A DNA stretch of 51,240 nt from a virus. The stretch covers positions 1 through 51,240 of IMG/VR virus record IMGVR_UViG_3300042896_000697. The stretch is one strand, 5' to 3'. Each line of letters opens with the position of its first letter. Position 1 is the stretch's first letter. The notes under the pieces were generated by a model, which saw only the letters and a list, made by a program, of their open reading frames with translations, made no database searches and was not told the DNA's origin. The position numbers were made by a program, and so were the translations under genes. Positions 9,695 through 43,139 of the stretch are shown here, piece by piece.

Positions 9695-10673
9695 CTATCC
9701 AAAAAAATCATCAATACAATTTCTTCTTTCATAAGACCAACCAATAGATTGTAACATACCATTTAATGGATCCAAGAAAGTTTTTTCATACTGTTTATCG
9801 TAATCTACATATTGTTCTAAATCAAACTCAGGTGGAATTGAAACTGGAAATGAAATTACTTCATGTTTTAATGGATTAGGTAATTTTAAATAACAAAATT
9901 TAATATGTGCACCCTCACCAATCATTTCATATCTATTCTGAAGACCCATTTCACGAAGTTTATTGTTATATAGTATTGATCCTTTAGTGTGAATTGGACA
10001 TTTATTACCATAAATCGTTTCTGAATCAGAATACTTTTCAATACCATTTACTCCACGAGGAAACGCAATCTCTTCAACAGAATAATTTTTAAACTCAGAT
10101 TTAACCGCAGCTACAAAATCTTGAATATCACCTTCAGTTCCGTTTAAAATCAAACCAACTGAACTACGAAGTTTATCGCGAATAACTAATGGAGTTGAAG
10201 ATTTAACAACTTCAAGACCCATAATTTTTATCTTAGGTTCGTTATAAACAACACCTTCATTTTCATACACATTTAATGCATATCGTTTTTTACCAGTCCA
10301 AAAACCATTAGAACTAATACCCTCAAGTTTAAATGAAATACAGTTACGTTTTACATGAGTATAGGCTTGCAAATCATTACAACATTCATTAATAATTGGA
10401 TCAATCTTTTCTTTACAAATTTTACTTAAAACAGGAACAATTTCTTTAAATTCTTTATCAGAATAAAATTTATTAACAATAGGTTCCAATGAAAGATACA
10501 TCGAATCTGTATCTTGATAAATTACCCATGGATAATCAGCTTTAAACATTTTATCTAATTTTAATTTAACAAATTCACCAACGGAAATAATAATGTATTG
10601 ACCAGATAAAGTTACAGCTCGAGCATTTTCTAAGGTGTAATATCTAAAAAACGCATTACCCAAAGCTCCATAT
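9695..10673 (-). CDS. 43: DNA polymerase gp43, exon 2 (C-terminal)
   Basis: Second exon of the family B polymerase, joined to 10925-12462 by removal of the intron. It begins inside motif B, restoring NSL-YGALGN, and continues with AFFRYYTLENARAV. It contains motif C YQDTDSMYLSL with the catalytic aspartates. The protein ends CIDDFFG, matching the short hydrophobic sliding-clamp-binding tail of T4/RB69 polymerases. Exon lengths 979 + 1538 = 2517 bases, exactly 839 codons, giving an 838-residue enzyme (T4: 898). Confidence 0.92.
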
Positions 10674-10924
10674 CAATTATGTTCATATAAGTTCGTTACA
10701 CTTATACCGTTCTCTTATGAACTGCTAACTGTTCCCAGCTAGAGCAGACTATCTCATCAACCACGTGGGTTGCCCTGCGCTTCCACTCACTTGAGTGTAC
10801 TTCCTTTCGGAATAGTCGTTACACCTTCCTATTTCTAGGCTTGGCACGGTATTGTCCGTTCTGGATGTTCACCGTTTTCACAGAGTTCTCATTAAATATT
10901 ACTACTTAATGCGCCATATAGTTT
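10674..10924 (-). ncRNA. group I self-splicing intron in gene 43, no ORF
   Basis: 251 bases. The 5' exon ends in U (TTCGCT) and the intron ends in G, as group I introns require. P1 pairs the exon's CGCU with an internal guide GGCG across a nine-base loop. The P7 pair is visible on the minus strand as AACGACTATTCC (10809-10820) with GATAGTC (about 10747-10753). The P4 to P6 core ATACCGTGCCAAGCC resembles the T4 td intron. Splicing recreates KIAMNSLYGALGN without gap. In-frame stops in the intron mean the unspliced mRNA gives only a 518-residue truncated polymerase. No endonuclease is encoded inside. Confidence 0.9.
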
Positions 10925-12462
10925 AGCGAATTCATGGCAATTTTAAATGCCATTTGCTCATTATTAAATTTTGAGATTAAATTTGAAATTCGTTTGTATT
11001 CTTTTTTATCATAATCTTTATTAGATTTTAAGGCTTCTAACTCAGATTCATATTTTAACATTGTTGATTTTGCTTCTTTACGTTTTTTCATATAAACGTC
11101 AATCAACTCAGGAATCATACCAACTTTATCTTTACGATACATAGCTCCATTAGCTGCAACAGCATATTCTTCTGGAAAAGTATATTCTTTATCTAATAAA
11201 CCTTTAGTTGTAATATTACCATCAAACATACCAGTAAAAGTTTCCAACGAAATATTCCATGTTTGTAAAATACTTGGATACAAACTAGTGGCATCGAAAC
11301 TAGCAATATCGCGATAAAATCCAGGAACTGGTTCGCGAACGTATGCACCTTCAAACTGTTCGCTTTTACTATTTTTAGATCTAGGCGGAATTACTATTTT
11401 ATTGGCTTTTAAATGATTAAAAATAATTGCATCCCACATTCTAATTTGGCTATAAATATCACCATAATTAATCTTAGCCAAATAACTCATGGTTAAGCAC
11501 AAATCAATAAGTTTTTCTGAATCTTCTAACTCATCAACTCTATCGCAATCGATAATGTTATAATCTACAAACATATTCCAACCATTGGTATAAAAATCTT
11601 TAAATGTATCAAATTCACTATGATCTAATTTACCATGACCTAAAACTAACTGAGCTACAGTTTCTAATCGTAAATTTTCTGGTTTTTTCTGTCCGTATTT
11701 TTTATAAAGATCTCGAAAGTCAACAACGTTAACTCCAACAATTTCAAATAGAGTTGTTGGTTTACCAAAATCGTCTTTAGTTTTTCGTTCTTTAATCCTG
11801 TTCCATGGACTTAAATCCTTAACTCTATCTTCGCTAATAATTTTAGCAATACGATTAACAAGATATTTTATATCGAACCCTTCAACGTTCCAACCTGTAA
11901 TAATATCAATATCGCTATGTTTCCAGAAATCAACAAAACGGTTCAATAAAGAATACTCATCATCACATAAAATAAACTCACAGTTTTCTTTTTTATTTCC
12001 AGTATATTCTCTAGACATAAAAGTTGTAGAGCGTTTTGTTTTCATGTTCTTCATAGTGATAAGAAGAACTTCTTCTGCTGCTAAATCAGGAGATGGAAAA
12101 CCGGAATTTTCTGTTGCAGTTTCGATATCCAATACATATGAATTAATGTATTCTATATCCCAATCAATAACTTTTGGAAATTGATCGGAGATAAATTGGA
12201 CATCGAATCCGATATCACCATAAATTTCAAAATTATCTACATCTTCGTATCTTTTAATAAAATCACGGGTTTCTTTAATATCTCCAGGTTGGATTTCTTC
12301 AACATATTGACCGAAAAGATTTTTCCAATCACTTTGTTTATTTGATTTAACATAAACTTTAGGCGAATATTCATATTTGAACTGAACTCGCTTACCATTT
12401 TCAATCCCTTTGTATAAAATACTATTCCCTAATATAGATACGTCAGTGTAGAATTTTGTCAT
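10925..12462 (-). CDS. 43: DNA polymerase gp43, exon 1 (exonuclease and palm)
   Basis: Encodes the N-terminal domain, the 3'-5' proofreading exonuclease and the first part of the polymerase. Exo I is YVLDIETA, Exo II ITGWNVEGFDIKYL, and Exo III DYNIIDCDRVDEL. Motif A is FDATSLYPSIL, with the aspartate that binds catalytic metal. The exon stops within motif B (KIAMNSL). It follows the Sm-like gene with no gap. RegA, encoded nearby, represses early mRNAs in T4. Splicing is needed for a functional enzyme. Confidence 0.93.
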
Positions 12463-17587: not shown

Positions 17588-17616
17588 ATTATATAACGTA
17601 ACTATGTATTAGTCAA
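17588..17616 (-). promoter_or_regulatory. sigma70-type promoter TTGACT-17-TATAAT
   Basis: Minus strand, exact 17-base spacer, just upstream of the CAT tRNA. Would transcribe tRNAs CAT and Gly and then gene 45. Confidence 0.7.
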
Positions 17617-17619
17617 GAA

Positions 17620-17802
17620 TTATTTTTTCTGAACTTTTTTGAAGAAATTATCTAATTTTTTATCACACTGTTTATTTGAATTTATCAAAGATTCAACTTT
17701 TGCAGTTAAAGCAGCATGATCATCCTGTAATTTAGCTAAATCGCCGGAACTAGCGCAACCTGTTACAAATAAACATAAACTAACTAAAAATAAAGTTTTC
17801 AT
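17620..17802 (-). CDS. small lipoprotein (possible o-spanin or Lpp-like)
   Basis: 60 residues. A lipoprotein signal: MKTLFLVSLCLFVTGC, with lipobox VTGC and Ala at +2, predicting acylation and outer-membrane sorting. The mature part is a short coiled coil (LAKLQDDHAALTAKVESLI). Shine-Dalgarno GAGGAAG precedes the ATG. It lies inside the tRNA cluster. Possible roles are the outer-membrane half of a spanin, superinfection exclusion or an Lpp mimic; none is proven. Confidence 0.7.
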   Translation of the reverse strand: MKTLFLVSLCLFVTGCASSGDLAKLQDDHAALTAKVESLINSNKQCDKKLDNFFKKVQKK

Positions 17803-20484: not shown

Positions 20485-20491
20485 AAGTCAA
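20463..20491 (-). promoter_or_regulatory. sigma70-type promoter TTGACT-17-TATAAT before tRNA-Thr
   Basis: Minus strand, exact 17-base spacer, -35 in GTGCTTGACT. It overlaps an inverted repeat (20454-20484) whose arms TATAGAGGT/ACCTCTATA flank the -10. Confidence 0.7.
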
Positions 20492-20509
20492 GCACTTTTT
20501 TAAATTATT

Positions 20510-21616: not shown

Positions 21617-22214
21617 TTTTACCTCTCTTTTTCCTAATTATGTGACTCTTTACAAATTTCTTAATTTTTTTATTTAGAGCAGTTTCAGCTCGTTCTAGGA
21701 CAAATTTAGAAACTTTAGTTTTAAAATCAATTCCATTTAATCTATCTATTCCTTGTTGAATAATTCTTGAAGTTAAACCATCGAACCTAGTCATCTTTTC
21801 ATTTCCTTCGAAATCTTGATATGAAACAATAACTGTAGTAGGGCGTTTAACTGCCATTAATAAACCCATATTACTTAAATCAGATTCTTCTAATAAAATT
21901 TCGCCATGCGATTCAATAACAATAGGATTGAAAAATGCAACAAAATTATCTGCAACTCCAGCAACCAATACTTTATGCTCTAATCCGCATTGATTTGCGG
22001 CAATTCCATATACTTTATGAAATTTACATGTTGCAATTAACTTTGAAGCAATTTCGCTAGAATTTAATTCAGTATTAGTAAAATCGAAGTGTTTTAACTT
22101 TGTAGTTAAAACTGGATCTTTTTGATCACATAATTCATAACCAAGAAATTGAGGTTCAGGCACTGCTGCAGCCTGAGAAACTACATCAGCAGTATTATAT
22201 ATAAACTCACTCAT
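21603..22214 (-). CDS. peptide deformylase homologue lacking all catalytic residues
   Basis: 203 residues from the ATG at 22214, which overlaps the gene 46 stop by ATGA. The deformylase framework is evident: GIAANQCG (70-77, equivalent to GLAAPQxG), FFNPIVIESHG, and IIQQGIDRLNG (151-161, equivalent to QHEIDHLNG). However, the EGCLS cysteine is aspartate (ESDLS, 110-114), HE is QG (154-155) and the last His is Arg158. All three metal ligands and the catalytic Glu are gone, so it cannot be an ordinary deformylase. A C-terminal basic tail follows. It may bind nascent chains or ribosomes instead. Confidence 0.8.
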   Translation of the reverse strand: MSEFIYNTADVVSQAAAVPEPQFLGYELCDQKDPVLTTKLKHFDFTNTELNSSEIASKLIATCKFHKVYGIAANQCGLEHKVLVAGVADNFVAFFNPIVIESHGEILLEESDLSNMGLLMAVKRPTTVIVSYQDFEGNEKMTRFDGLTSRIIQQGIDRLNGIDFKTKVSKFVLERAETALNKKIKKFVKSHIIRKKRGKNGKN

Positions 22215-24184
22215 TGTATAACCTTCATCTTTGAAAAGTTTTTTATTTTTTCGAACTTTAATGTACAATCGAATTTATCCGATACTTGATCAGATTTGTG
22301 ACTAATAACAAATATATTTGTACTTTTATCAACTGATGCCAATAAATTCATAAAAACATCAGTTCCCGTTGAATCGAGGCTAGAATCCATTATTTCGTCT
22401 AAAATCAATAAATTGGTATTTACCGAATTTTTTAATCTAGCCAGTTGTCTAAATGAAAATAAAATAGCTAAATCTAATCGAGTTTTTTCACCCTCAGAAA
22501 AATTTGCATAAGTAAATTCATCTCTATGACGCGATTTAATTACTTCTTCAAAATTTTCATTAATATTAAAATTAACAAAGAAATCTAATTGAGCCAAATA
22601 CTGATTTATATATTTGTTTAAAATAGGAAGATACTGTTTAATTATACGAGTTTTAATTCCTCCATCCTTTAACATAACAGAAATAAAATCATAATAACTT
22701 TTTTCATTTATATATTCTTCATATTTTTCAACATAAACATCTAATGATTCAATTAATTCTTGCAGTTTATCTGAACCATTATCAGTGGTATTTGATGAAT
22801 CTTTTAGTTGATCAATTTCATTAGAAACTAGTTTTATATATTTTTGCGCAGAAACAATATTTGAATTTTTCTCTGATAAAATACTTGAATTCTTTAAAAT
22901 TTTAGCGTTTATCTTGGATATAGCAACTAACCTATCAGTAGCAACCTGTAATTCCTTAGATAATTTGTTTTCGCCATCAACTAATTCCGTTAATTTAGTG
23001 CTATTTTTTTCAATAATTTCTTGTTTAAACGCAGAATCAATCGATTGTCGGCATGTTGGACAATTATCATTTGAATGATAGAATGTGTTATCTTTTTCTA
23101 CCTTAGATATATTATCGCGCAATTTACCTTCAATTAATAATAATTTATTTTTCTTTTTTTCAACGACATCCATATCAGAAATTTCCTGACCTAGCCGTTG
23201 GTTTTCAGACAATAACTCAGAGATAGTTTGCTGTAAATCTTCAACTTCAACACAAGTATTTGCAATTAATTCTTTTTTTCTAAGAATTAGTTCATCAGAA
23301 ACTTGATTGGTACGTTTAATATTTTGTTTTTGAAGTTCTATTTTGTCTTTAAATAATTCAATATTAAATTTACAATCTTGAACAGTTTCTTTAATTCCAG
23401 ATACTTTATCTTTAACAATAGAATTCATATTAGAGAAAATTTGAATATCAAGTAAATCTTCAATAACAGAGCGTCTATCTCCAGCTGATAACTGCATAAA
23501 AGGAGTATATCTAGCTGACCCAAGAATAACAACTTGAGTAAAAGATTTATAACTCATTTTAAGTATATATCTTTCTAATTGTTCTTGATAATCTTTTACT
23601 TTTGCGTCTTGGCGAACTAAATCGCCATTACAATAAACTTCAAATATATTGGGTTTAATACCACGAATAATTTTATATTTGTTTGGACCAATAGAAAACT
23701 CAACTTCAGTAACCAATTCAGATTTATTAATTGAATTTATTAAACCGCTTTTGTTAATTTTTCTAAAAGGTTTTCCATAAAGGGCAAAGGTAATTGCATC
23801 AATAAACGTTGAATTGTGTGATACCAAACCATTAGCATAAAATTCCTTAACATCGGCAACTTGTAAATCAAAAAGATCTTCCTTAGTTTTTAAGTGTTTA
23901 ATCAATTTAATTTTCACAGGACCGTTTTCTGTGAATAAAAAATCACCAACAGATAAATTTTTACTAGCAACCCAATTACAATCATTGCTTAACATAAGAT
24001 GATCTGGAGAAACTTTTAGGATTTCTCCAGATTCAGATTCAAGCTTTATCACATCAGATTTTTTAGCAGTTAAAGCTGCCCCTTCAATACATTTATATCC
24101 GAAACGAGTTTTTACAGAAAGCGTTCCTATTAAATTTGGATATTTTTTATAAAATTGTACAACATCACCAACTGTAGTTTTCAT
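22211..24184 (-). CDS. 46: IntC-gp46 C-terminal fusion (split intein half plus gp46 nuclease subunit)
   Basis: 657 residues. Residues 1-124 are the C-terminal intein (SPDH block B at about 59-62, LFDLQVADVKEFYANG block F and GLVSHN block G). Ser125 begins the C-extein STFIDAITFALYGKPF, the rest of Walker A. The gp46 body has the zinc hook CPTC, signature FSEGEKTRLDLAIL and Walker B LLILDEIMDSS. After splicing with the 25288-25488 product it would form a 573-residue gp46 (T4: 560), the Rad50-like partner of gp47. Confidence 0.9.
   Translation of the reverse strand: MKTTVGDVVQFYKKYPNLIGTLSVKTRFGYKCIEGAALTAKKSDVIKLESESGEILKVSPDHLMLSNDCNWVASKNLSVGDFLFTENGPVKIKLIKHLKTKEDLFDLQVADVKEFYANGLVSHNSTFIDAITFALYGKPFRKINKSGLINSINKSELVTEVEFSIGPNKYKIIRGIKPNIFEVYCNGDLVRQDAKVKDYQEQLERYILKMSYKSFTQVVILGSARYTPFMQLSAGDRRSVIEDLLDIQIFSNMNSIVKDKVSGIKETVQDCKFNIELFKDKIELQKQNIKRTNQVSDELILRKKELIANTCVEVEDLQQTISELLSENQRLGQEISDMDVVEKKKNKLLLIEGKLRDNISKVEKDNTFYHSNDNCPTCRQSIDSAFKQEIIEKNSTKLTELVDGENKLSKELQVATDRLVAISKINAKILKNSSILSEKNSNIVSAQKYIKLVSNEIDQLKDSSNTTDNGSDKLQELIESLDVYVEKYEEYINEKSYYDFISVMLKDGGIKTRIIKQYLPILNKYINQYLAQLDFFVNFNINENFEEVIKSRHRDEFTYANFSEGEKTRLDLAILFSFRQLARLKNSVNTNLLILDEIMDSSLDSTGTDVFMNLLASVDKSTNIFVISHKSDQVSDKFDCTLKFEKIKNFSKMKVIQ
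23813..24184 (-). other. C-terminal split intein (IntC), 124 residues
   Basis: Begins at the ATG of the gp46-C gene and ends with the His-Asn pair of SHN. The +1 residue is Ser. Block B has SPDH in place of TxxH; block F and G motifs are typical. Confidence 0.9.
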
Positions 24185-25236
24185 AATAAATTTTGCGTGT
24201 AAGTTTCAATAAATTGTTTATAGTCGTTTTTATTAGTCAGAATAACTGAACCAAAAGTAGATTCTTTATATTTCATTTTTTGTATATATACATCATCTGT
24301 ATAGCCAGCTAATTCCACCCAAACATTAGAATTAATCAAATAAAAATCGCACCGCATTTTAGAGTTTGGATAATATTTTTCTATTATAAAATCTACACCA
24401 TTTACAAACCCATTTTCAACTAACATATAGTAAAATAATATTTCATTAGAAGAACGAAGTAATTTATTTTCAACTTTCATCGAATACAAATAATTACCAT
24501 GTTTACCTTTTAGTAATATTGGAGCATCAGTAGATTTAAACTCTAAAAACGTTCTTAACCAAGAATCAATATTTTCGGGTTTATCGTTAACCAACTCAAA
24601 ATAATACGACTTTAAGTATTTCTTCTTAAAATTAACCATAGACAAATATAAATCAAATTCATCTAAATTTTTCAATATAAAGAGTTTTATATCCTCTAAA
24701 GAATAAAAAATTTCGCAATTTCTTGAGATTAAATTTTCTACAAATTTTTGTCTACCAAAAATTTCTCCATATTTTTCAATAAATGTAGTTAATTTAAAAG
24801 TAGATTTTTTAGAATTTATTAGATTAAGTTCATCAACAGATTTAGAATTAAGTGTTGAATTCCATTTTTCTTGCCTATCGATCCAAATAGATAAACCTAC
24901 ATCATATCCATATTTCTGTATACATTTTTCTCTAGAAAAAGTTGATTGAATTTCAGAAACGCGTAAAATCGCTTCCTGAGTCGATAAACCTTTATATTCC
25001 CAGTATTCTATACATCTAGGAGAAAGATGTTTAAAACTTTCTTTAGGCTTGTTTGAATTGGTTTTAGCACCCTTTTTTTGATGTTCCAACCTCATTTCTT
25101 CAGCTTTTTCCAAATCCACGTTAAATTTATGAATATAATATTCAACGTTAGTTGGCCTGCGAATTTTTATTTGATACTTAGCTTCTTCAATAGAATATCC
25201 TTTTTGTATCCAGGTTTCCAATTTAAACGCAGACAT
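24181..25236 (-). CDS. PD-(D/E)XK (Vsr-like) homing endonuclease between intein halves
   Basis: 351 residues. The N-terminal two-thirds carry repeated helical DNA-binding modules: WIQKGYSIEEAKYQI and YWEYKGLSTQEAILRV. The C-terminal domain is nuclease-like: RSSNEILFYYMLVENGF, RCDFYLINSNVWVELAG, with an Asp followed by Glu and Gly as in PD-(D/E)XK/Vsr folds. Its stop overlaps the gp46-C start (ATGA). A late promoter precedes it by 31 bases. Its position between two halves of an intein-split gene is the 'fractured gene' arrangement described for phage-derived split inteins. Confidence 0.75.
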   Translation of the reverse strand: MSAFKLETWIQKGYSIEEAKYQIKIRRPTNVEYYIHKFNVDLEKAEEMRLEHQKKGAKTNSNKPKESFKHLSPRCIEYWEYKGLSTQEAILRVSEIQSTFSREKCIQKYGYDVGLSIWIDRQEKWNSTLNSKSVDELNLINSKKSTFKLTTFIEKYGEIFGRQKFVENLISRNCEIFYSLEDIKLFILKNLDEFDLYLSMVNFKKKYLKSYYFELVNDKPENIDSWLRTFLEFKSTDAPILLKGKHGNYLYSMKVENKLLRSSNEILFYYMLVENGFVNGVDFIIEKYYPNSKMRCDFYLINSNVWVELAGYTDDVYIQKMKYKESTFGSVILTNKNDYKQFIETYTQNLL

Positions 25237-25266
25237 AATTACACCCCTATTTACTTAATATAATTA

Positions 25267-25274
25267 TATTTATA
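25267..25274 (-). promoter_or_regulatory. late promoter TATAAATA between the gp46 halves
   Basis: Exact octamer 31 bases before the endonuclease ATG. It would express the endonuclease and the IntC-gp46 part late, while the gp46 N-part relies on the upstream gp47 transcript. Confidence 0.65.
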
Positions 25275-25287
25275 ATTTTTAAATGGT

Positions 25288-25488
25288 CTAGGAAAGAAAA
25301 TCTTTAAATAATTTTTCTATTTCAGGATTATCAAATAACACATCAATTTCTGTAGATTTATGCAGGCATTTGCCTTGCCCGTTAATTCCAGTGGATAAAG
25401 TAGTTCTATCTTTATTTAATTCAATTTCAGTAAAGTTATTTCCATAGGAAAGAAAGTTTTTAAACCGGATTGTTTCAAAAATTACCAT
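25288..25488 (-). CDS. 46: gp46 N-terminal fragment fused to IntN
   Basis: 66 residues. Residues 1-40 are the gp46 N-terminus: VIFETIRFKNFLSYGNNF, ending in the Walker A start GINGQGK. Residue 41 is Cys, the first residue of the intein. The remaining 26 residues (CLHKSTEIDVLFDNPE...) form a very short N-intein. The start overlaps the gp47 stop (TAATG). Confidence 0.88.
   Translation of the reverse strand: MVIFETIRFKNFLSYGNNFTEIELNKDRTTLSTGINGQGKCLHKSTEIDVLFDNPEIEKLFKDFLS
25291..25368 (-). other. N-terminal split intein (IntN), 26 residues
   Basis: Starts with the nucleophilic Cys (CLHKSTEIDV, block A) directly after Lys of the Walker A loop and ends KDFLS. Unusually short; similar in size to the 25-residue IntN of the AceL-TerL split intein. 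Confidence 0.85.
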
Positions 25489-26552
25489 TATTCAACCGCC
25501 ATTGCTTCAGTATATAAATTAGACATCATAGTCTTCAATTTGTTTTTATCTAATTCTTGTTGATTAATACTATCAATATATTTGTAAGTAATTGTTAATG
25601 TATCATCAGTTTCATCAACATCCTCATCAATTTCTAAATCAACTACATCTTCAGTAATTGATACATCTATAGGGTTATTCGCATAAACTTGATCGACAAA
25701 TAAATCAAACAAATATGGATTAGTTTTGGCCTTAACTTGAATCTTAACATATTTACCAATTACGTTAGATAAAAATTCTTTATCAAGATAACTGGAATTA
25801 ATGACATCACTAGATCCAGAATCATCATAATCCATCTTATAGAAAATTGAATTTGGATTAAGTACAGTTTCCAATTCCCTAGTTTCTAAGTCAAAAACTC
25901 TAAAACCTTTTGGATCGGCATAATCTTGCCAAGTCATCTCATAAGGAGTCCCTATGTACTCGATATTCCCTCTCTTAGACGCGTGATGATAATGACCGGA
26001 TAATACCCTTTCATAATTAGAAAACGCCTTAGCGGACAATCCATGCTCCGATAGGATACTACTTTGGTACATCTTAAAACCTTCTATTTCAAAATGCCCA
26101 ACACAAACAGTAGAAGTATCTTGTTTAATAAAATTTAAACATTCTTGATAATTTTCTTTACAAATCCATGGAATAATAGAAATTCCATTAAGAAGTTTAG
26201 TTGGTTCTTTTACAACAGTTACATTTTTAAATTGTGTTAAGAATAACCCAGAACTACTAATACTCAATGATTCTTTATAAAAGAGGTCGTGATTTCCTAA
26301 TAGCGTAGTTAATTGTATATCCAATTTATCAAATCTAGAAAAGAAATATCTTTTTGCTTCATCAAGAGTATAATGGTTAGAATATTTACGTCTATCAAAA
26401 ATATCACCTAATTGAATAACGTGTTTAACATTATTAGCAATTAAATAAGGAAAAAATATATCAGTATAGAATTTATCAAAAAATTCATGAAAATGTTGAC
26501 TATCCCCGCGACAACCAAAATGCGTATCACCTAAAAATACAATTTTACTCAT
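25488..26552 (-). CDS. 47: recombination nuclease subunit gp47 (SbcD/Mre11-like)
   Basis: 354 residues (T4: 339). Calcineurin-like phosphoesterase motifs: GDTHFG (8-13), GDIFDRR, GNHD and GHYHHASK with metal-binding His and Asp. It works with gp46 to resect DNA ends for recombination-dependent replication. Gene order 47-46 is as in T4. Confidence 0.94.
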   Translation of the reverse strand: MSKIVFLGDTHFGCRGDSQHFHEFFDKFYTDIFFPYLIANNVKHVIQLGDIFDRRKYSNHYTLDEAKRYFFSRFDKLDIQLTTLLGNHDLFYKESLSISSSGLFLTQFKNVTVVKEPTKLLNGISIIPWICKENYQECLNFIKQDTSTVCVGHFEIEGFKMYQSSILSEHGLSAKAFSNYERVLSGHYHHASKRGNIEYIGTPYEMTWQDYADPKGFRVFDLETRELETVLNPNSIFYKMDYDDSGSSDVINSSYLDKEFLSNVIGKYVKIQVKAKTNPYLFDLFVDQVYANNPIDVSITEDVVDLEIDEDVDETDDTLTITYKYIDSINQQELDKNKLKTMMSNLYTEAMAVE

Positions 26553-27217
26553 TAATCCTCCAAGAAAGTTTCAATTCCTTTAGCTTTTTTCTTTTTCTTC
26601 GCTACAGGACTTTTAGTGCTTTTTTTGAATTCAGTATCTTCAAATTTTTGAATAAAATCATACATATTATCATAAACTTCAATTTGTTTAATTTGACCTT
26701 CACCAAGTTCCAATAACTCAGCTTCATCAAGAATACCGAAATTTTCTGTTGCTTTATATTTTATATACTGTTGTTTTTTTTCTTTTTGGATCCTACGAAC
26801 AAAACACCACCAAAGAATCTGAGTAAAATAAGCAAAAGGATTTTTAGTTTTTGCTGAATCAAAATTTTCAAAATACATTAAACAGTTTTCAATTCCATCA
26901 GCAATCATTTCATCTTTATATGAATACCCAAAGAAATTAGGTCTACGAGCTAATCCCTCTGATAATTTAACGAAACATTCTCCAATATAATTTGGAATTC
27001 TAGGTTTAATTTTTCCTTCTTCTTTTGCAAGTGCGCAATCAGCTTTATATTTTTCTAATGCAGCGCAAAAATCAGCATTATTAATATATTCTCTGGTAAC
27101 TTTTTTTCTTTTTACTTTAGCAACAACGGGTTTTTCTTCTGGAAGATCTTCTAATAAAGAAGGTATTTCTTCAGTAAAATCTGGGACGTCAGCAAAATCA
27201 AATTTTAATTCTTTCAT
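26552..27217 (-). CDS. 55: late transcription sigma factor gp55
   Basis: 221 residues (T4: 185). The central region matches T4 gp55: CFVKLSEGLARRPNFFGYSY, MIADGIENCLMYFENFD and NPFAYFTQILWWCFVRRIQKEKKQQY, a sigma region 2 that opens TATAAATA promoters. A basic stretch precedes the short acid-hydrophobic tail GIETFLED, which fits the clamp-binding tail that lets gp55 use gp45. Its own promoter is at 27254-27282. Confidence 0.94.
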   Translation of the reverse strand: MKELKFDFADVPDFTEEIPSLLEDLPEEKPVVAKVKRKKVTREYINNADFCAALEKYKADCALAKEEGKIKPRIPNYIGECFVKLSEGLARRPNFFGYSYKDEMIADGIENCLMYFENFDSAKTKNPFAYFTQILWWCFVRRIQKEKKQQYIKYKATENFGILDEAELLELGEGQIKQIEVYDNMYDFIQKFEDTEFKKSTKSPVAKKKKKAKGIETFLED

Positions 27218-27253
27218 AGCAGTTACTCCACGTATTATCAGTTATTTAATAGT

Positions 27254-27282
27254 ATTATACTATAAAAAAGCTAAAATAGCAA
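27254..27282 (-). promoter_or_regulatory. 55: sigma70-type promoter of gene 55 (TTGCTA-17-TATAAT)
   Basis: Minus strand, -35 TTGCTA, 17-base spacer ending TATAG, -10 TATAAT, about 37 bases before the gp55 ATG. Confidence 0.65.
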
Positions 27283-27368
27283 GAATTATTTCTTCTGAAC
27301 GGGGGATTTGATTGAATTTTCGTCAAGAACTATTTCTCGTTAAAATATAATAAGTTGAAAAAAAGTGC

Positions 27369-27397
27369 TTGACGAAATTAAATTTGTAGGTTACATT
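27369..27397 (+). promoter_or_regulatory. plus-strand sigma70-type promoter into the 27400-27498 gap
   Basis: TTGACG inside GTGCTTGACG, with a 17-base spacer and a weaker -10 TACATT. The upstream context (AAAAAAAGTGCTTGAC) matches the minus-strand promoter at 20463-20491. No plus-strand protein gene follows. Confidence 0.5.
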
Positions 27398-27414
27398 ATA
27401 CCTTAAGTGTTGTT

Positions 27415-27494
27415 TGGAACTTCGCTAAAGCTTCGTTCCATAAACATTAAAGTCTCAAAATAGAATTACTGCGTAGCAGATCCTCGAAGAGGAT
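27415..27494 (+). ncRNA. candidate structured small RNA, three hairpins
   Basis: No ORF. Hairpins: 27415-27440 (TGGAAC/GTTCCA with inner GCT/AGC), 27469-27479 (CTGC/GCAG, loop GTA) and 27480-27494 (ATCCTC/GAGGAT, loop GAA). The promoter at 27369-27397 points into it. Orientation is not certain; on the minus strand the same helices could act as termination or regulatory structure upstream of gene 55. Confidence 0.35.
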
Positions 27495-27498
27495 TAAA

Positions 27499-27876
27499 CT
27501 AGTGAATAATATATCCTTCTGGTGGAATATCTGTTTCAGCTATTAGTGTTTCTTTAATTTGTTTAGCTAATGTTGATTCGGGATCTAGATATTCCAATAT
27601 TGCATCAAGATATCGATATCCAAACTCTATAGATGAATAAGAAACAAATAAAATGTGATCCATTGGAATAGGTGCTTCTTGTAGAGGAAATGCTTCTAAA
27701 GGCATCCAGTCAACCATAATAATTTCTTCAGTTTCATTTTCAATGTCAATGGTAGGGTAGAATGTTTTAGGGTATTTTATTATTACAGTATTAGTTTCTT
27801 TATCTTGATGATAGAATCCAATTAAATCTTCACCAGTTCTTAATCTAACAATTTTAATTTCAAATTTTTCGGTCAT
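27499..27876 (-). CDS. hypothetical Sm-like protein upstream of uvsW
   Basis: 125 residues, acidic, beta-rich. The N-terminal KIVRLRTGEDLIGFYHQDKE resembles the start of the 12463-12786 protein, so the two are probably paralogues. It overlaps uvsW by ATGA, so it is the 3'-terminal gene of the uvsW transcript. Function unknown. Confidence 0.6.
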   Translation of the reverse strand: MTEKFEIKIVRLRTGEDLIGFYHQDKETNTVIIKYPKTFYPTIDIENETEEIIMVDWMPLEAFPLQEAPIPMDHILFVSYSSIEFGYRYLDAILEYLDPESTLAKQIKETLIAETDIPPEGYIIH

Positions 27877-29378
27877 AATGTTTCCATATCCACTTTAATA
27901 ATTTTATAATCAAATTTTTCTTCATTGTAAATCTTGATTCTTTCTTGAAAATGTGTTAGAGTATAATTTTGATGCTTCTTATACCGTAAATCATCAGCAA
28001 GGTCATATAATACTGCTTCATCTTTATTTTCATTTAAACGTAAAACGCGACCAATAGCTTGGAGGTTTCTTATTCTAGATTTAGAAGGGCTAGCAAATAT
28101 AATATTATGTAGGTTTTTAATATTAGTTCCAGTAGACACTGTTCCAACAGAACCTATTAAAATTACATTATGTTCAGTCTCCATTGCCTTTCTAATTTCT
28201 TCTCTTTCTTCAGCCTTAATATTACCATGAATATAATATATCTTTTTATTAACAGCATGTTTTGAATTAGAAATTAACTCATATAACACATCTCCATGTT
28301 TTTCAACATATTGATAAAGTAATAATGTATTTCCTTTTAATGATAATGATAAATTCTTAATAAATTTATTTCTATTGGCATTAGCAATTAAATATTCTAA
28401 TTCTTGTTGATATTTTAATCCTTTTGATAACTTACAAGTTTCCTCGGGATATTTTAAAACAATACATTTAATATTTAATTTTGTTACTTGTTTGTTATCC
28501 ATTAATTGTTTAGTTGTAATAACCTTTCTAACTGGACCAAATAAACTTTCTAATTGTAATGAATGTATTTTTTGTCCATTTAAAGTTCCAGTAACACCAA
28601 CTCGATAATCGGCATTAACGCATTTTTGTACAATACCTGTTAAGCTATTTGCTGATGCTAAATGAGCTTCATCACATAACACAAAATCAAATTGATCAAA
28701 ATAAGTTCGGCTTTTATGATTAAATAATGATTGCCAAGTGCTAATATATAAATGTTTTTCTGCATTTTTATCTTGACCAGCAAATATCATATGAATATGT
28801 TTATTTACATCCCATCTATTATGACTTGAGTAATCAGCAAAATCTGATGTAAGTTGATGACATAATGATGTGTTTGGAACCAACAGTAATCCTTTCTTTC
28901 TATTATGCGCTAACAAGAATCTAACAATAATATAAAGAATACAACTTTTACCTGATGACGTTGGAGATAATAACATTAAACGTTTTTCGTTAAGGAAATC
29001 TAAAACGCCTTTAAATTGATAATCTCTAACCTCAATTTTCTTTCCATTAGAATGGATATCTAATGAAGTAATAAATTTGTGTAACTCAGTGTCCGTAACT
29101 GGGTCGTAGTTATCTTTATAATTGTGTTGAAGGGTATAGTCCCTATCTTTAGCAAACGCCTCTAATTGAGGGATTAAACCGATAAAAAACTCCATATCTC
29201 CATTTGGTAATATTTTTGCTAGGCGAACCTTTCCATCCCATAATCTTGCTTTATAACTGGGCATAAATTTATATCCAGTAGCAAAAAAAGAGAAGTAATC
29301 GCTTAGTTCCTGTGCAATACTTTTGTCGCATTTTAGGATGGCATAAGTTTCGTTATGTTTTTCAATTTCAATTATCAT
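27873..29378 (-). CDS. uvsW: UvsW helicase
   Basis: 501 residues (T4: 503). SF2 helicase: TSSGKS (Walker A, about 140-145), DEAH (motif II), TGT (motif III, GVTGTLNG), and motif VI QAIGRVLR. The first ~100 residues match the T4 UvsW N-terminal domain. UvsW unwinds R-loops and branched DNA, switching from origin to recombination replication. It precedes UvsY-like T4 order. Confidence 0.94.
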   Translation of the reverse strand: MIIEIEKHNETYAILKCDKSIAQELSDYFSFFATGYKFMPSYKARLWDGKVRLAKILPNGDMEFFIGLIPQLEAFAKDRDYTLQHNYKDNYDPVTDTELHKFITSLDIHSNGKKIEVRDYQFKGVLDFLNEKRLMLLSPTSSGKSCILYIIVRFLLAHNRKKGLLLVPNTSLCHQLTSDFADYSSHNRWDVNKHIHMIFAGQDKNAEKHLYISTWQSLFNHKSRTYFDQFDFVLCDEAHLASANSLTGIVQKCVNADYRVGVTGTLNGQKIHSLQLESLFGPVRKVITTKQLMDNKQVTKLNIKCIVLKYPEETCKLSKGLKYQQELEYLIANANRNKFIKNLSLSLKGNTLLLYQYVEKHGDVLYELISNSKHAVNKKIYYIHGNIKAEEREEIRKAMETEHNVILIGSVGTVSTGTNIKNLHNIIFASPSKSRIRNLQAIGRVLRLNENKDEAVLYDLADDLRYKKHQNYTLTHFQERIKIYNEEKFDYKIIKVDMETL

Positions 29379-29379
29379 T

Positions 29380-29820
29380 TTAATTTCCAGCTAGGAATCT
29401 AGTGTATGTCATATATTCTCTTAATTGCCAAGTTCTGTTACCGAGCTCTTTAATTATTGCCTCACAAACATATATACATTCCTCATAGTAGGCTTTCTTT
29501 TCAAGAATTTTTATTAAAAAATCGTCAGCTTCAAGATACGTATCGATATTACCTTTGGTGCCAATCTTTAAGTCGAACTGATCCCACCCATACTCGTCTA
29601 AGGTTTCCTTTGCAAGATTTCCTAGGTAATACTCCCTACGAACTTTTTTCATCCTTGCATGGTCGAATTTTGCTTTCTGTGCAGCGAGTCTATGCTGAGA
29701 AAGAATCTCGACATATTTCGCGTGCAAAAGAGGAGTATTTACAAGTTCTTGGTGTGGTTTAGATTCGTCGATTTGGCTATCAATTTTCCAATATTCTATA
29801 ATCGTGTCAAGTTTTATCAT
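29380..29820 (-). CDS. uvsY: recombination mediator UvsY
   Basis: 146 residues (T4: 137). The pattern IDESKPHQELVNTPLLHAKY and KKVRREYYLGNLAKETLDEYG, then ADDFLIKILEKKAYYEECIY, matches UvsY. UvsY loads UvsX onto gp32-coated DNA. Codon use is more balanced (fewer AT-biased codons) than neighbours. Confidence 0.92.
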   Translation of the reverse strand: MIKLDTIIEYWKIDSQIDESKPHQELVNTPLLHAKYVEILSQHRLAAQKAKFDHARMKKVRREYYLGNLAKETLDEYGWDQFDLKIGTKGNIDTYLEADDFLIKILEKKAYYEECIYVCEAIIKELGNRTWQLREYMTYTRFLAGN

Positions 29821-29862: not shown

Positions 29863-30405
29863 TTACTGTAATAATGTTATTTCGTACCGTTTAAACCTAA
29901 ATGTTGCAGTTGCAGTCATAATTTTTGATGAACTAACTCTAATATCGAACGGTATTGATGAAACATATACTGGGAATAGGTCGATAAAATGTATATTTAC
30001 TCTTGGTGTGTCATTTGCTACAGACAATGTTGTTAATATTGCGTCAGCATACTGTGGGGTATTAATATATTCATATTGACTATATTTCGATAATTTATCT
30101 AGATTGATATAATCATCCCAAGCTTCGGCTTGAGTATATCCTTTAATCCAGTAATATATTGACGACCAAGACCTTAATTCTTCGTCTAGAAGAAATTCGA
30201 TAGATAAATCTTCGTATTCCATTTTATCGCCTGGAACGCTCATATCTCTAAATGGTGTATTTTGCACGGTACTTTGTGAATTTACTCCAGGAAGGTTTGC
30301 TGCTTGACAAAAAAACTGAACTTCCTTTAGTCTTGGGATAGTAAAGATAAACTTTGATGACTGTAATAAATCGGTATTACAGATAAGAGCGTCATTTAAA
30401 GCCAT
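29863..30405 (-). CDS. tail-tube-like baseplate protein (gp19/gp54 superfamily)
   Basis: 180 residues. SKFIFTIPRLKEVQFFCQAANLPGV and VPGDKMEYEDLSIEFLLDEEL, ending with the beta-rich ITATATFRFKRYEI-like end, fit the fold shared by phage tube and baseplate proteins. It differs from gp19 at 40391-40930. A late promoter precedes it at 30433-30440, in line with virion function. Likely a baseplate tube initiator; assignment within the family is not secure. Confidence 0.65.
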   Translation of the reverse strand: MALNDALICNTDLLQSSKFIFTIPRLKEVQFFCQAANLPGVNSQSTVQNTPFRDMSVPGDKMEYEDLSIEFLLDEELRSWSSIYYWIKGYTQAEAWDDYINLDKLSKYSQYEYINTPQYADAILTTLSVANDTPRVNIHFIDLFPVYVSSIPFDIRVSSSKIMTATATFRFKRYEITLLQ

Positions 30406-30432: not shown

Positions 30433-30440
30433 TATTTATA
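30433..30440 (-). promoter_or_regulatory. late promoter TATAAATA before baseplate gene
   Basis: Exact octamer 28 bases before the 30405 start. Confidence 0.7.
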
Positions 30441-41018: not shown

Positions 41019-43139
41019 TTAGAAATTACCGGCAATTTCAGTGAAGTCTACGCCAGTACGAACTGCTACGAAATTCAACTGGATAAAGTTAATAGATCTA
41101 GCAGGTTTAATATAAATATCACCAATAAATCTATTTGTATCAATAACTTCTGCAGTATTATTTGTATCATCACAAACAACTTTATAGTCATAAATACCTC
41201 TACGCCCTTTTACATCTCTCAAGAACGGTTCAACAATAGATATGAATTGCGCTCTTGTAAATGCATCATTGAATTCAAATAGAGAGTATTTAGCTGCAAT
41301 TGCAATTGCTTTTTCAAGAACAATAAACAATCTACGAACGTTAATACGATCAAATGCAGATGGTTTAGTTTGCATTGTTTTGTCACCATATAAAATAATA
41401 CCTTCACCTGGAAAAGCAACAACAGGATTAATGCCATTTTTATACAATTCATCTCTTTGTGCTTTAGATGGATTCCATGATAATTTAATTGCATTTAAAA
41501 TTTGTCCGCGATTAAATCCAGCAGGCGACCACCATGGATCTCTAACATTATCAGTTCTAGCGCATAAACCCGCAATATCAGCGTTTAATGGAATAAAACG
41601 ATATTTATTATTATACTTATCGAATTGATATTTCCATCCTGAATCAAATACTGAGTATGATGTAGATGGAGTTAATGTATTTCTATATGCAATAATATTA
41701 TCTAAATTAACTGATTCTACTGCATCTGCTCTTGTTGGAGAAACGAATGCAACGCAATCTTTTCTTTGATTAACGATATCTAATGCATGATTAACAATTG
41801 TTGTATTATTATCGCCAGTAAGCAGTAATGAAATATCAACTTCGTCTGGATCAGCAAATAAATCATATCCAGCATAAATATCTGCTGTAGTTGGAGCAAC
41901 GTCAGTTCCGCCGGACAATTTACTTGAATAATTTACCAAATAATCAAATGATAAACTAGCTTCAGATACAGAACCCCAGTTTGTTGAACCATTAATATGG
42001 TCAGCAACATAAATATATTTAGAATTATTAAAAATTCTTGTCACATAATAGTTTGGCGAACCATCATCAGTTCTTGCATCATCAGCTTTAGATGTATGAG
42101 AATATTTTTCTAATACAGTTCCTCTTTCTCCAGTAAATCTACCATCAGTGTCAATCACGATAATGTGCATTTCATCGTCGCGAGCGTTTTTGTTTGCAAC
42201 ATACTGAGAAGTTCCTGGAGCAGAATCAAATTGATCAGCATATGCCCATTTTGTTATAGTTGTTACGTCAGTTTTGGTTCCAACTAATGGATTTAATAAT
42301 ACAACAGAAGATGTAGCTGCAGTTACTGCTCCGATGCTAACAACTTCATTATCAGCTCCGCCAATATTAATAATATCGCCAGTAGATAAAAATGTATTTG
42401 CATACCCAGTGTTCAAAATAACTGTAGAACTTGCATCCGTTGTATTTGCAGTTAATCCAATTTTAGAGAATGAATTTGCAGAAGAACAAACACTAATAGT
42501 TAATGAATTACCAAATACTCCTGGATAACGACCAAAGAATGCGCCGTATTTAGAATAGGTTCCAGCATTAAAATTTAATTCATAATCCGTTTCATTTGAA
42601 ATACTAACGTTAGTTTGTGATGCTGGTAATACAACAGAAGAACCAGTTGAAGTGCCAACTAAATTATTATATACAACAACTGTATTACCACTAACAGTAT
42701 TTGCAGTTAATGTAAAAATATCTCCAGCTGGAGTAGTAACTTTAAATGTATCGCCGCGATCAATATAATCTGCAACTTCATCTGTAAACACAACATTATT
42801 GCTGCTGCTATTTGTAGTTACAGTCAAAGTAGTTAAATTGATAAAATCAGAAATACTTGTTGAATTAAATGTATTTGAATTATCAATAGCTCTTACAACT
42901 CTAAGGTTATTTGTATATGCTAAGAAATTCGCTGCTGTAAAAAATGATGTAAAATTGTTATTATTTGGTTTACCAAATATTGATGCTAATCTGTTTTCTG
43001 AGTCGACTAAAACTCTTATTGCTGCCGGTCCCCAGCTAAATTGTCCAGCAAATGCCCCAATAGATGAACCTACGCCTGGAACGACGTTGGTTAAATCTAT
43101 CTCCGATACATTTACTCCTGGCGATAATTGAAATCCCAT
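41019..43139 (-). CDS. 18: tail sheath protein gp18
   Basis: 706 residues (T4: 659). N-terminus LSPGVNVSEIDLTNVVPGVG and SSIGAFAGQFSWGPA, and C-terminal half with YPGVFGNSLTIS, NVRRLFIVLEKAIAIAAKYSLFEFND and FVAVRTGVDFTEIAG match gp18. A middle region of Ser/Thr/Val-rich beta repeats carries extra surface domains. The sheath contracts on infection. A late promoter lies at 43199-43206. Confidence 0.95.
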   Translation of the reverse strand: MGFQLSPGVNVSEIDLTNVVPGVGSSIGAFAGQFSWGPAAIRVLVDSENRLASIFGKPNNNNFTSFFTAANFLAYTNNLRVVRAIDNSNTFNSTSISDFINLTTLTVTTNSSSNNVVFTDEVADYIDRGDTFKVTTPAGDIFTLTANTVSGNTVVVYNNLVGTSTGSSVVLPASQTNVSISNETDYELNFNAGTYSKYGAFFGRYPGVFGNSLTISVCSSANSFSKIGLTANTTDASSTVILNTGYANTFLSTGDIINIGGADNEVVSIGAVTAATSSVVLLNPLVGTKTDVTTITKWAYADQFDSAPGTSQYVANKNARDDEMHIIVIDTDGRFTGERGTVLEKYSHTSKADDARTDDGSPNYYVTRIFNNSKYIYVADHINGSTNWGSVSEASLSFDYLVNYSSKLSGGTDVAPTTADIYAGYDLFADPDEVDISLLLTGDNNTTIVNHALDIVNQRKDCVAFVSPTRADAVESVNLDNIIAYRNTLTPSTSYSVFDSGWKYQFDKYNNKYRFIPLNADIAGLCARTDNVRDPWWSPAGFNRGQILNAIKLSWNPSKAQRDELYKNGINPVVAFPGEGIILYGDKTMQTKPSAFDRINVRRLFIVLEKAIAIAAKYSLFEFNDAFTRAQFISIVEPFLRDVKGRRGIYDYKVVCDDTNNTAEVIDTNRFIGDIYIKPARSINFIQLNFVAVRTGVDFTEIAGNF

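Follow-up and report, generated by a model that had tools for sequence, protein, structure and literature searches.

What is transcribed from a long gap beside the late sigma factor gene of a phage whose genome is otherwise tightly packed, and in which direction? The question arose for a 51,240 nt stretch of a T4-like virus (IMG/VR record IMGVR_UViG_3300042896_000697, positions 1 to 51,240), hereafter the window. Its DNA is similar to that of phages of Synechococcus, Prochlorococcus, Pelagibacter and Methylophilales, and the fetched phages with such similarity belong to the Kyanoviridae, bar one without a family. On the minus strand the genes follow in the order tail tube, uvsY-like, uvsW, Sm-like, gap, gene 55 and gp47-like (Table 1). 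A preliminary description of this DNA had pointed to some 280 free bases beside gene 55, and the gap at 27218-27498 indeed spans 281 bases with no ORF of ≥25 aa on either strand. Intergenic DNA accounts for 3,479 of the 51,240 bases (6.8%). Six gaps reach ≥200 bases; three contain tRNAs, one lies at the window edge, one separates two polymerase ORFs and one is the gap considered here. The polymerase ORFs (10906-12462 and 9695-10663, minus strand, 242 bases apart) appear to make up a single DNA polymerase gene, possibly divided by a split intein, an intron or a frameshift. The Sm-like gene is annotated as 'methylamine utilization' in many cyanophage records; Pfam PF16243 (Sm_like) matches the S-RIM8 counterpart at 1e-44 and that of Melnitz at 1e-6 (29.3 bits, cut-off 29.4), and the window protein has no Pfam match.

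Table 1. Position of genes, promoter signals and hairpins around the gap (window coordinates)
Feature	Position	Strand	Details
gp47-like gene	25488-26552	minus	
Gene 55, late sigma factor	26552-27217	minus	phrog_234, 1.4e-54
Gene 55 promoter	27254-27282	minus	TTGCTA-17-TATAAT, 10/12 match
Second -35-like box, opposite orientation	27321-27337	minus	AGAAATAGTTCTTGACG; imperfect inverted repeat with the plus box
Divergent, antisense-directed promoter (predicted)	27358-27397	plus	extended -35 box AAAAAAAGTGCTTGACG 27358-27374, 17-nt spacer, -10 TACATT 27392-27397
Hairpin 3	27406-27447	unassigned	GGAAC/GTTCC stem, symmetric 3x3 internal loop, apical loop, outer stem AGTGTT/AACATT
Hairpin 2	27469-27479	unassigned	CTGC(GTA)GCAG on plus; TAC loop on minus
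Hairpin 1	27480-27494	unassigned	ATCCTC(GAA)GAGGAT on plus
Sm-like protein gene	27499-27876	minus	synteny; phrog_527 5e-8
uvsW helicase	27873-29378	minus	opposite strand to plus promoter; Pfam UvsW_N 3e-16
uvsY-like recombination mediator	29380-29820	minus	same presumed operon; phrog_231 1.3e-30
Tail tube gene	29863-30405	minus	
T4-type late-promoter-like octamer	30433-30440	minus	TATAAATA; gap upstream of tail tube-uvsY-uvsW-Sm-like

The preliminary description had also placed a plus-strand promoter in the gap, directed antisense to the Sm-like and uvsW genes. We recovered the site as TTGACG-17-TACATT (27369-27397, 9/12 match, -35 hexamer at 27369-27374), and its orientation holds as well, both genes being on the minus strand, and it faces the 3' end of the tail tube-uvsY-uvsW-Sm-like series; the predicted start falls at about 27404-27406. 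Taken alone this match is uninformative, because a promoter scan of 26000-28500 returned 16 sites against 16.0 expected, and the site itself is weak (score 9.1, p=0.07 against dinucleotide shuffles). Its extended -35 box had been called the same as the sequence upstream of a tRNA promoter. The two are near-identical rather than strictly the same, since AAAAAAAGTGCTTGACG resembles TAAAAAAGTGCTTGACT before tRNA genes (20486-20502, minus strand) with 2 mismatches; sites within 3 mismatches of the AAAAAAAGTGCTTGACG-type box number 4 against 0.26 expected. The inverted repeat formed by the two -35-like boxes of the gap is, by eye, 14 bp and perfect in locus L011. No intrinsic terminator was called on either strand of 26000-28500 (shuffles mean 0.6). 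As a separate observation, the stretches 17614-17634 and 27280-27300 are 95% identical over 21 bases; the gene 55 promoter is similar in its -35 region to a promoter that precedes tRNA-Met/Gly and overlaps the end of ORF 17620-17802.

Close relatives of the locus were defined as 13 IMG/VR loci with Sm-like protein identity of 79-96%. Eleven of them have the gap with its two promoters and its hairpins. The contig of L010 ends before the gene 55 promoter but retains the plus promoter and the hairpins, and that of L015 ends before the gap. The plus promoter is nearer to consensus in L011 and L012 (TTGACT-17-TATATT), while across the window's clade -35 elements are mostly weaker (TTGACG, TTGACT, TTGCTT), with TTGACA in two loci and the 17-nt spacing kept. 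The pattern GTNCTTGAC-17/19-TANNNT occurs 16 times in five relative contigs (2-4 each; reversed-pattern control 2) and occupies the gap position in all five; in three of the five another copy is exactly the promoter found before tRNA genes in the window.

We found that the predicted promoter is kept at this place and in this orientation far beyond the window's clade, in many Kyanoviridae and similar contigs of both lake and marine origin. The main group comprised the best 80 of 592 IMG/VR gp55 loci in a search with an alignment of gene 55 sequences headed by S-RIM8; their gaps measure 76-230 bases. All of these best 80 carry TTGACA-16/18-TANNNT directed away from gene 55 into the upstream gene. 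With no motif imposed, 67 of the 69 non-redundant gaps have a best divergent site that outscores dinucleotide shuffles at p<=0.05, the two exceptions being the window (p=0.07) and Melnitz (0.32); the gene 55 promoter passed the same threshold in 64 of the 69. Among the 14 named phages fetched, 12 show TTGACA-16/17-TANNNT in divergent orientation, including DSL-LC03 and S-SRM01 (lake and reservoir) and Mosig of Pelagibacter. By eye, ACG-2014f (TTGCCA-17-TATAAT) is a 13th that fits, and Melnitz has at best TTGCTT-17-TATATT. In 52 non-redundant loci with spacer 17 the mean spacer identity was 0.43, and the fourth, fifth and third -10 letters reached 0.82, 0.68 and 0.29, respectively; the search itself fixed the -35 and three letters of the -10, and in part restricted the fourth and fifth -10 letters. 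Antisense-directed sites scoring ≥12 are few, with 2 intergenic and 2 intragenic each in S-RIM8 (168 kb) and in 140 kb of Mosig, and in both phages one of the two intergenic sites is that in the Sm-like/gene 55 gap. A second set, gaps near window-type gene 55 in other, mostly more distant contigs, reached p<=0.05 in only 9 of 18 non-redundant gaps, thus promoter conservation is weaker there. Loci L165-L226 show by eye a sense-strand GGGTACATAC-type motif about 15-35 bases past the stop codon of the upstream gene, which is kept in several loci with a poor sigma70 match.

Regarding what follows the promoter, the distance from the -10 end to the Sm-like stop codon is 11-48 bases in most of the 69 non-redundant gaps, with outliers of 63 (L097), 126 (L110) and 100-104 (L011, window). 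In the main group the -10 therefore ends too near the stop codon for a hairpin array. Sequence conservation was absent downstream of about +10 in the main group, and no extra synonymous constraint was detected at the 3' end of 74 non-redundant Sm-like genes, so that no specific RNA body appears to be selected there. Terminators within 2 kb were called on the antisense strand in 43 of the 80 loci versus 14 of 80 on the sense strand, at scattered positions and at no fixed place on the antisense strand.

In the main group a variable palindrome (AACNC-TGT-N-GGGTT) comes right behind the -10. Of 52 loci that were not aligned on the palindrome, 40 have G and 12 have T as the seventh base past the -10, and G occupies the eighth position in 12; transcription should start at this G, 7-8 bases after the -10. 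Across 66 distinct start regions the arms often pair (287 Watson-Crick pairs, 14 mismatches). A hairpin on the sense strand was disfavoured, as wobble pairs numbered 55 on the divergent strand versus 5 on the other with both strands treated symmetrically, many of the 55 being one recurrent, non-independent pair. A hairpin in the divergent RNA is itself hard to reconcile with the predicted start, which would fall in its loop, and the palindrome may just as likely be an operator as an RNA hairpin. A strict composite of promoter and palindrome matched at least 120 stretches in IMG/VR. In the 80 listed, gene 55 is on the other side in 66 and Sm-like plus uvsW are downstream in 2 more; the remaining 12 have no uvsW, Sm-like, gp55 or gp47 within 2.5 kb on either side, where contigs reach. 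Six of these 12 have an ORF start 20-37 nt past the element, e.g. of an endonuclease-like gene (named from sequence reading). In S-RIM8 the only further strong copy precedes a small ORF at 41953 (25.7 versus 28.3 at the gap), in a search with a threshold of 9, above which the shuffled control gave 2 matches; no copy was found in the window. By these counts the element is a small class of predicted promoters, of which the antisense use at the gene 55 gap is the widely conserved part. The class TTGACA-17-TANAAT-AACTCTGTNAGGGTT also precedes ordinary genes, in S-RIM8 (HQ317385, 41953, plus strand) and in L228, L255, L260, L270, L280 and L300, which suggests a small shared regulon. In L305 and L283, and less clearly in L264, it faces the 3' end of an ORF on the opposite strand; antisense use of the class may thus extend beyond uvsW/Sm-like.

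In the window's clade the space is filled otherwise. The three back-to-back hairpins first described at 27415-27440, 27469-27479 and 27480-27494 all appear when 27400-27500 is folded at minimum energy, whichever strand is taken. This segment folds at -23.8 kcal/mol on the plus strand (z -2.73) and -25.1 kcal/mol on the minus strand (z -2.49), with 4/200 shuffles as good in either case; for 27400-27450 alone, equal or better folding was seen in 0/200 shuffles (plus) and 2/200 (minus). The outer stem of hairpin 3 begins 0-2 nt after the predicted plus-strand start in the window, and the first stem begins 2-7 nt past it in the window, L003, L010, L011, L013, L156, L160, L161 and L162. A search of relatives for compensating base changes, as had been proposed, found them. 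Between loci hairpin 3, one base shorter in several close relatives, changes from T-A to A-T and G-C to A-T, hairpin 1 from C-G to T-A and T-A to C-G, and in hairpin 2 L161 alone has TTCC(GAA)GGAA with two compensatory pairs. In a hand alignment of the arms of hairpins 1-3, 101 of 102 cells are Watson-Crick and 6 of 16 pairs show a compensatory change; pairing was the criterion by which the arms were picked, some arms are common to several loci, and 4 of the 6 compensatory pairs come from a single locus each. RNAalifold on the unedited automatic alignment gave double changes in 5 of 15 pairs, 12 of the 15 being also broken or gapped in 1-2 sequences. The changes suggest, on few independent events and within the window's clade, that the hairpins are a selected structure.

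The array was found only in this clade. In the wider clade (L156-L164, gene 55 identity 60-79%) the gaps span 284-354 bases and contain a promoter-like site of 17-base spacing, which a varying set of hairpins separates from the Sm-like stop codon. Only L162 (TTGACA-17-TAATAT, p=0.015) and L164 (TTGACA-17-TATACT, p=0.005) pass there; L156, L160 and L161 have TTGCTT with TACTAT, TAATAT or TATATT, and in these three another site in the gap outscores the aligned one, none being significant. The full hairpin 3 pattern (≤3 mismatches) occurs nowhere else in five relative contigs; its two hits, in the L013 and L012 contigs, are both this locus, and the other three contigs were missed owing to a one-base deletion. 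Rfam at the gathering score returned only tRNAs for the whole window, and by E-value four sub-threshold matches, the best in the gap with 22.7 bits against a gathering score of 63. A BLAST search of 27380-27500 against phages gave one match, which was dismissed as chance.

How these elements act together could well be as follows, a reading to which we give an even chance: a divergent promoter in the gap, read with host sigma, yields an RNA antisense to a late uvsW/Sm-like operon, and the 5' part of this RNA is structured here. As expected of cis-antisense transcription, the predicted and conserved promoter lies on the strand opposite its target gene. The plus signal would be a sigma70-type phage promoter, the local form of the divergent promoter of Kyanoviridae and similar contigs. 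Before the late switch, host-type RNA polymerase would fire both this promoter and the opposite gene 55 promoter in the same gap, and the plus transcript, antisense to the Sm-like gene and uvsW, would keep both low by polymerase collision or RNA pairing until the product of gene 55 redirects transcription. The three hairpins in the first ~95 nt would, in the window's clade, give the antisense RNA a stable, structured 5' part. Promoter conservation and orientation, the compensating changes and the gene order are what we observe; from them we infer transcription, timing, repression and the action of the hairpins in the plus RNA. A delay of uvsW/Sm-like expression would follow if the antisense promoter is early or middle. 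Passages of PMC3016281 describe a late promoter for UvsW in T4 and the unwinding of origin R-loops by this protein, and the uvsW/Sm-like operon is probably late here too. Late-type octamers, one of them upstream of this operon, number 17 in the window versus 15.8 by chance; 9 were judged by eye to be in the intergenic 6.8%, all 9 on the minus strand. In its widest form, in which the gap of Kyanoviridae T4-like phages fires the late sigma gene together with an antisense RNA silencing late uvsY-uvsW-Sm-like until late sigma is made, a shared regulator acts through the start palindrome on this promoter and on one or a few others, and the 5' part of the RNA has become a hairpin array in the window's clade, we consider the scheme tentative and on the whole rather unlikely.

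The strand on which the hairpins act cannot be read from the sequence, because nearly all pairs are Watson-Crick, and by eye the few wobbles conflict. The G-U wobbles in a stem of L161 pair only on the minus strand, as they would if the hairpins were a 3' UTR array stabilising or ending the uvsW/Sm-like mRNA, with the plus promoter separate; the single wobble of a 16-bp stem in L164 pairs only on the plus strand, which speaks against this. On the minus strand hairpin 1 starts 4 nt past the Sm-like stop codon in the window, further hairpins come after the stop codon and ahead of hairpin 1 in L160 and L156 (by eye), and the internal loop of hairpin 3 reads GAA/GAA, which could form sheared G-A pairs. 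However, there is no U-run and no terminator call in 26000-28500, and the first stem lies close to the predicted plus start, so that we hold this 3' UTR account possible, if somewhat doubtful. The original proposal was a small RNA. A discrete version of it would be a trans-acting RNA of ~95-100 nt, spanning 27405 to about 27495, with the adjacent Sm-like (Hfq-fold) protein handling it. Promoter and hairpins do fill the space from the predicted start to the Sm-like stop codon, the Sm-like gene adjoins, and the structure is conserved with compensating changes, albeit from few independent events in the window's clade. An intrinsic terminator with a U-run is absent from both strands of 26000-28500, an Rfam match is likewise absent, the main group has no room for the array, and RNA binding by the Sm-like protein is putative here. 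What stands of the proposal are the conserved promoter and the compensating changes in the hairpins, which pair equally on the minus strand; the discrete small RNA we regard as improbable, and an antisense promoter appears the more general reading of these sequences.

A conserved promoter beside the gene of an R-loop-removing helicase could also prime replication through an R-loop. The T4 origins oriF and oriG each combine a middle promoter with an unwinding element, and the R-loops are removed by UvsW (passages of PMC3016281). The negative GC skew of the window weakens right of ~27 kb, but beyond 30 kb the window turns to plus-strand genes, followed by structural genes, S-RIM8 has no skew change at the locus and Mosig only a slight one, and a conserved downstream element is lacking. 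A replication origin was unsupported by skew in the window, S-RIM8 and Mosig, and we judge this reading highly unlikely. The predicted antisense promoter is like oriF/oriG and uvsW control in T4 in that a late UvsW, probable here, goes with promoter-started transcripts that need no protein product (PMC3016281).

The nearest parallel to the antisense reading is found in the T4-like cyanophage S-PM2, for which passages of PMC5931967 describe CfrI, an antisense RNA of the psbA region. CfrI is like the RNA proposed here in being antisense in such a phage, but lies in the psbA region and not opposite uvsW/Sm-like, and the gap is without an Rfam match at the gathering score. An antisense promoter that is conserved, with a structured leader peculiar to one clade, would be a variant of the cis-antisense transcription known for psbA in S-PM2. 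In the open-access literature searched, including passages of PMC5931967, PMC5082946, PMC9964418, PMC3037559 and PMC3016281, we found no description of an antisense promoter in this gap; an earlier report of the start site, for instance in the transcript map of Doron et al. 2016, is possible. The predicted promoter is present in phages cultured on cyanobacteria and in one Pelagibacter phage and is thus directly testable in laboratory phages, and it would bear on the timing of late recombination in these phages and on the role of their Sm-like protein. The work of Doron et al. on cyanophage Syn9 is reported to have found that middle genes have promoters of the host type and that an unusual element marks early ones. 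The main-group palindrome might be that early element; the window lacks the palindrome.

Elsewhere in the window, gene 46 (22211-25488, minus strand) looks intein-split by eye. An N-part (25288-25488) has an intein-like start after GQGK, the C-part (22211-24184) has an intein-like end before STFIDAITF, and an endonuclease-like ORF (24181-25236) lies between the parts, an arrangement that resembles 'fractured genes' with split inteins.
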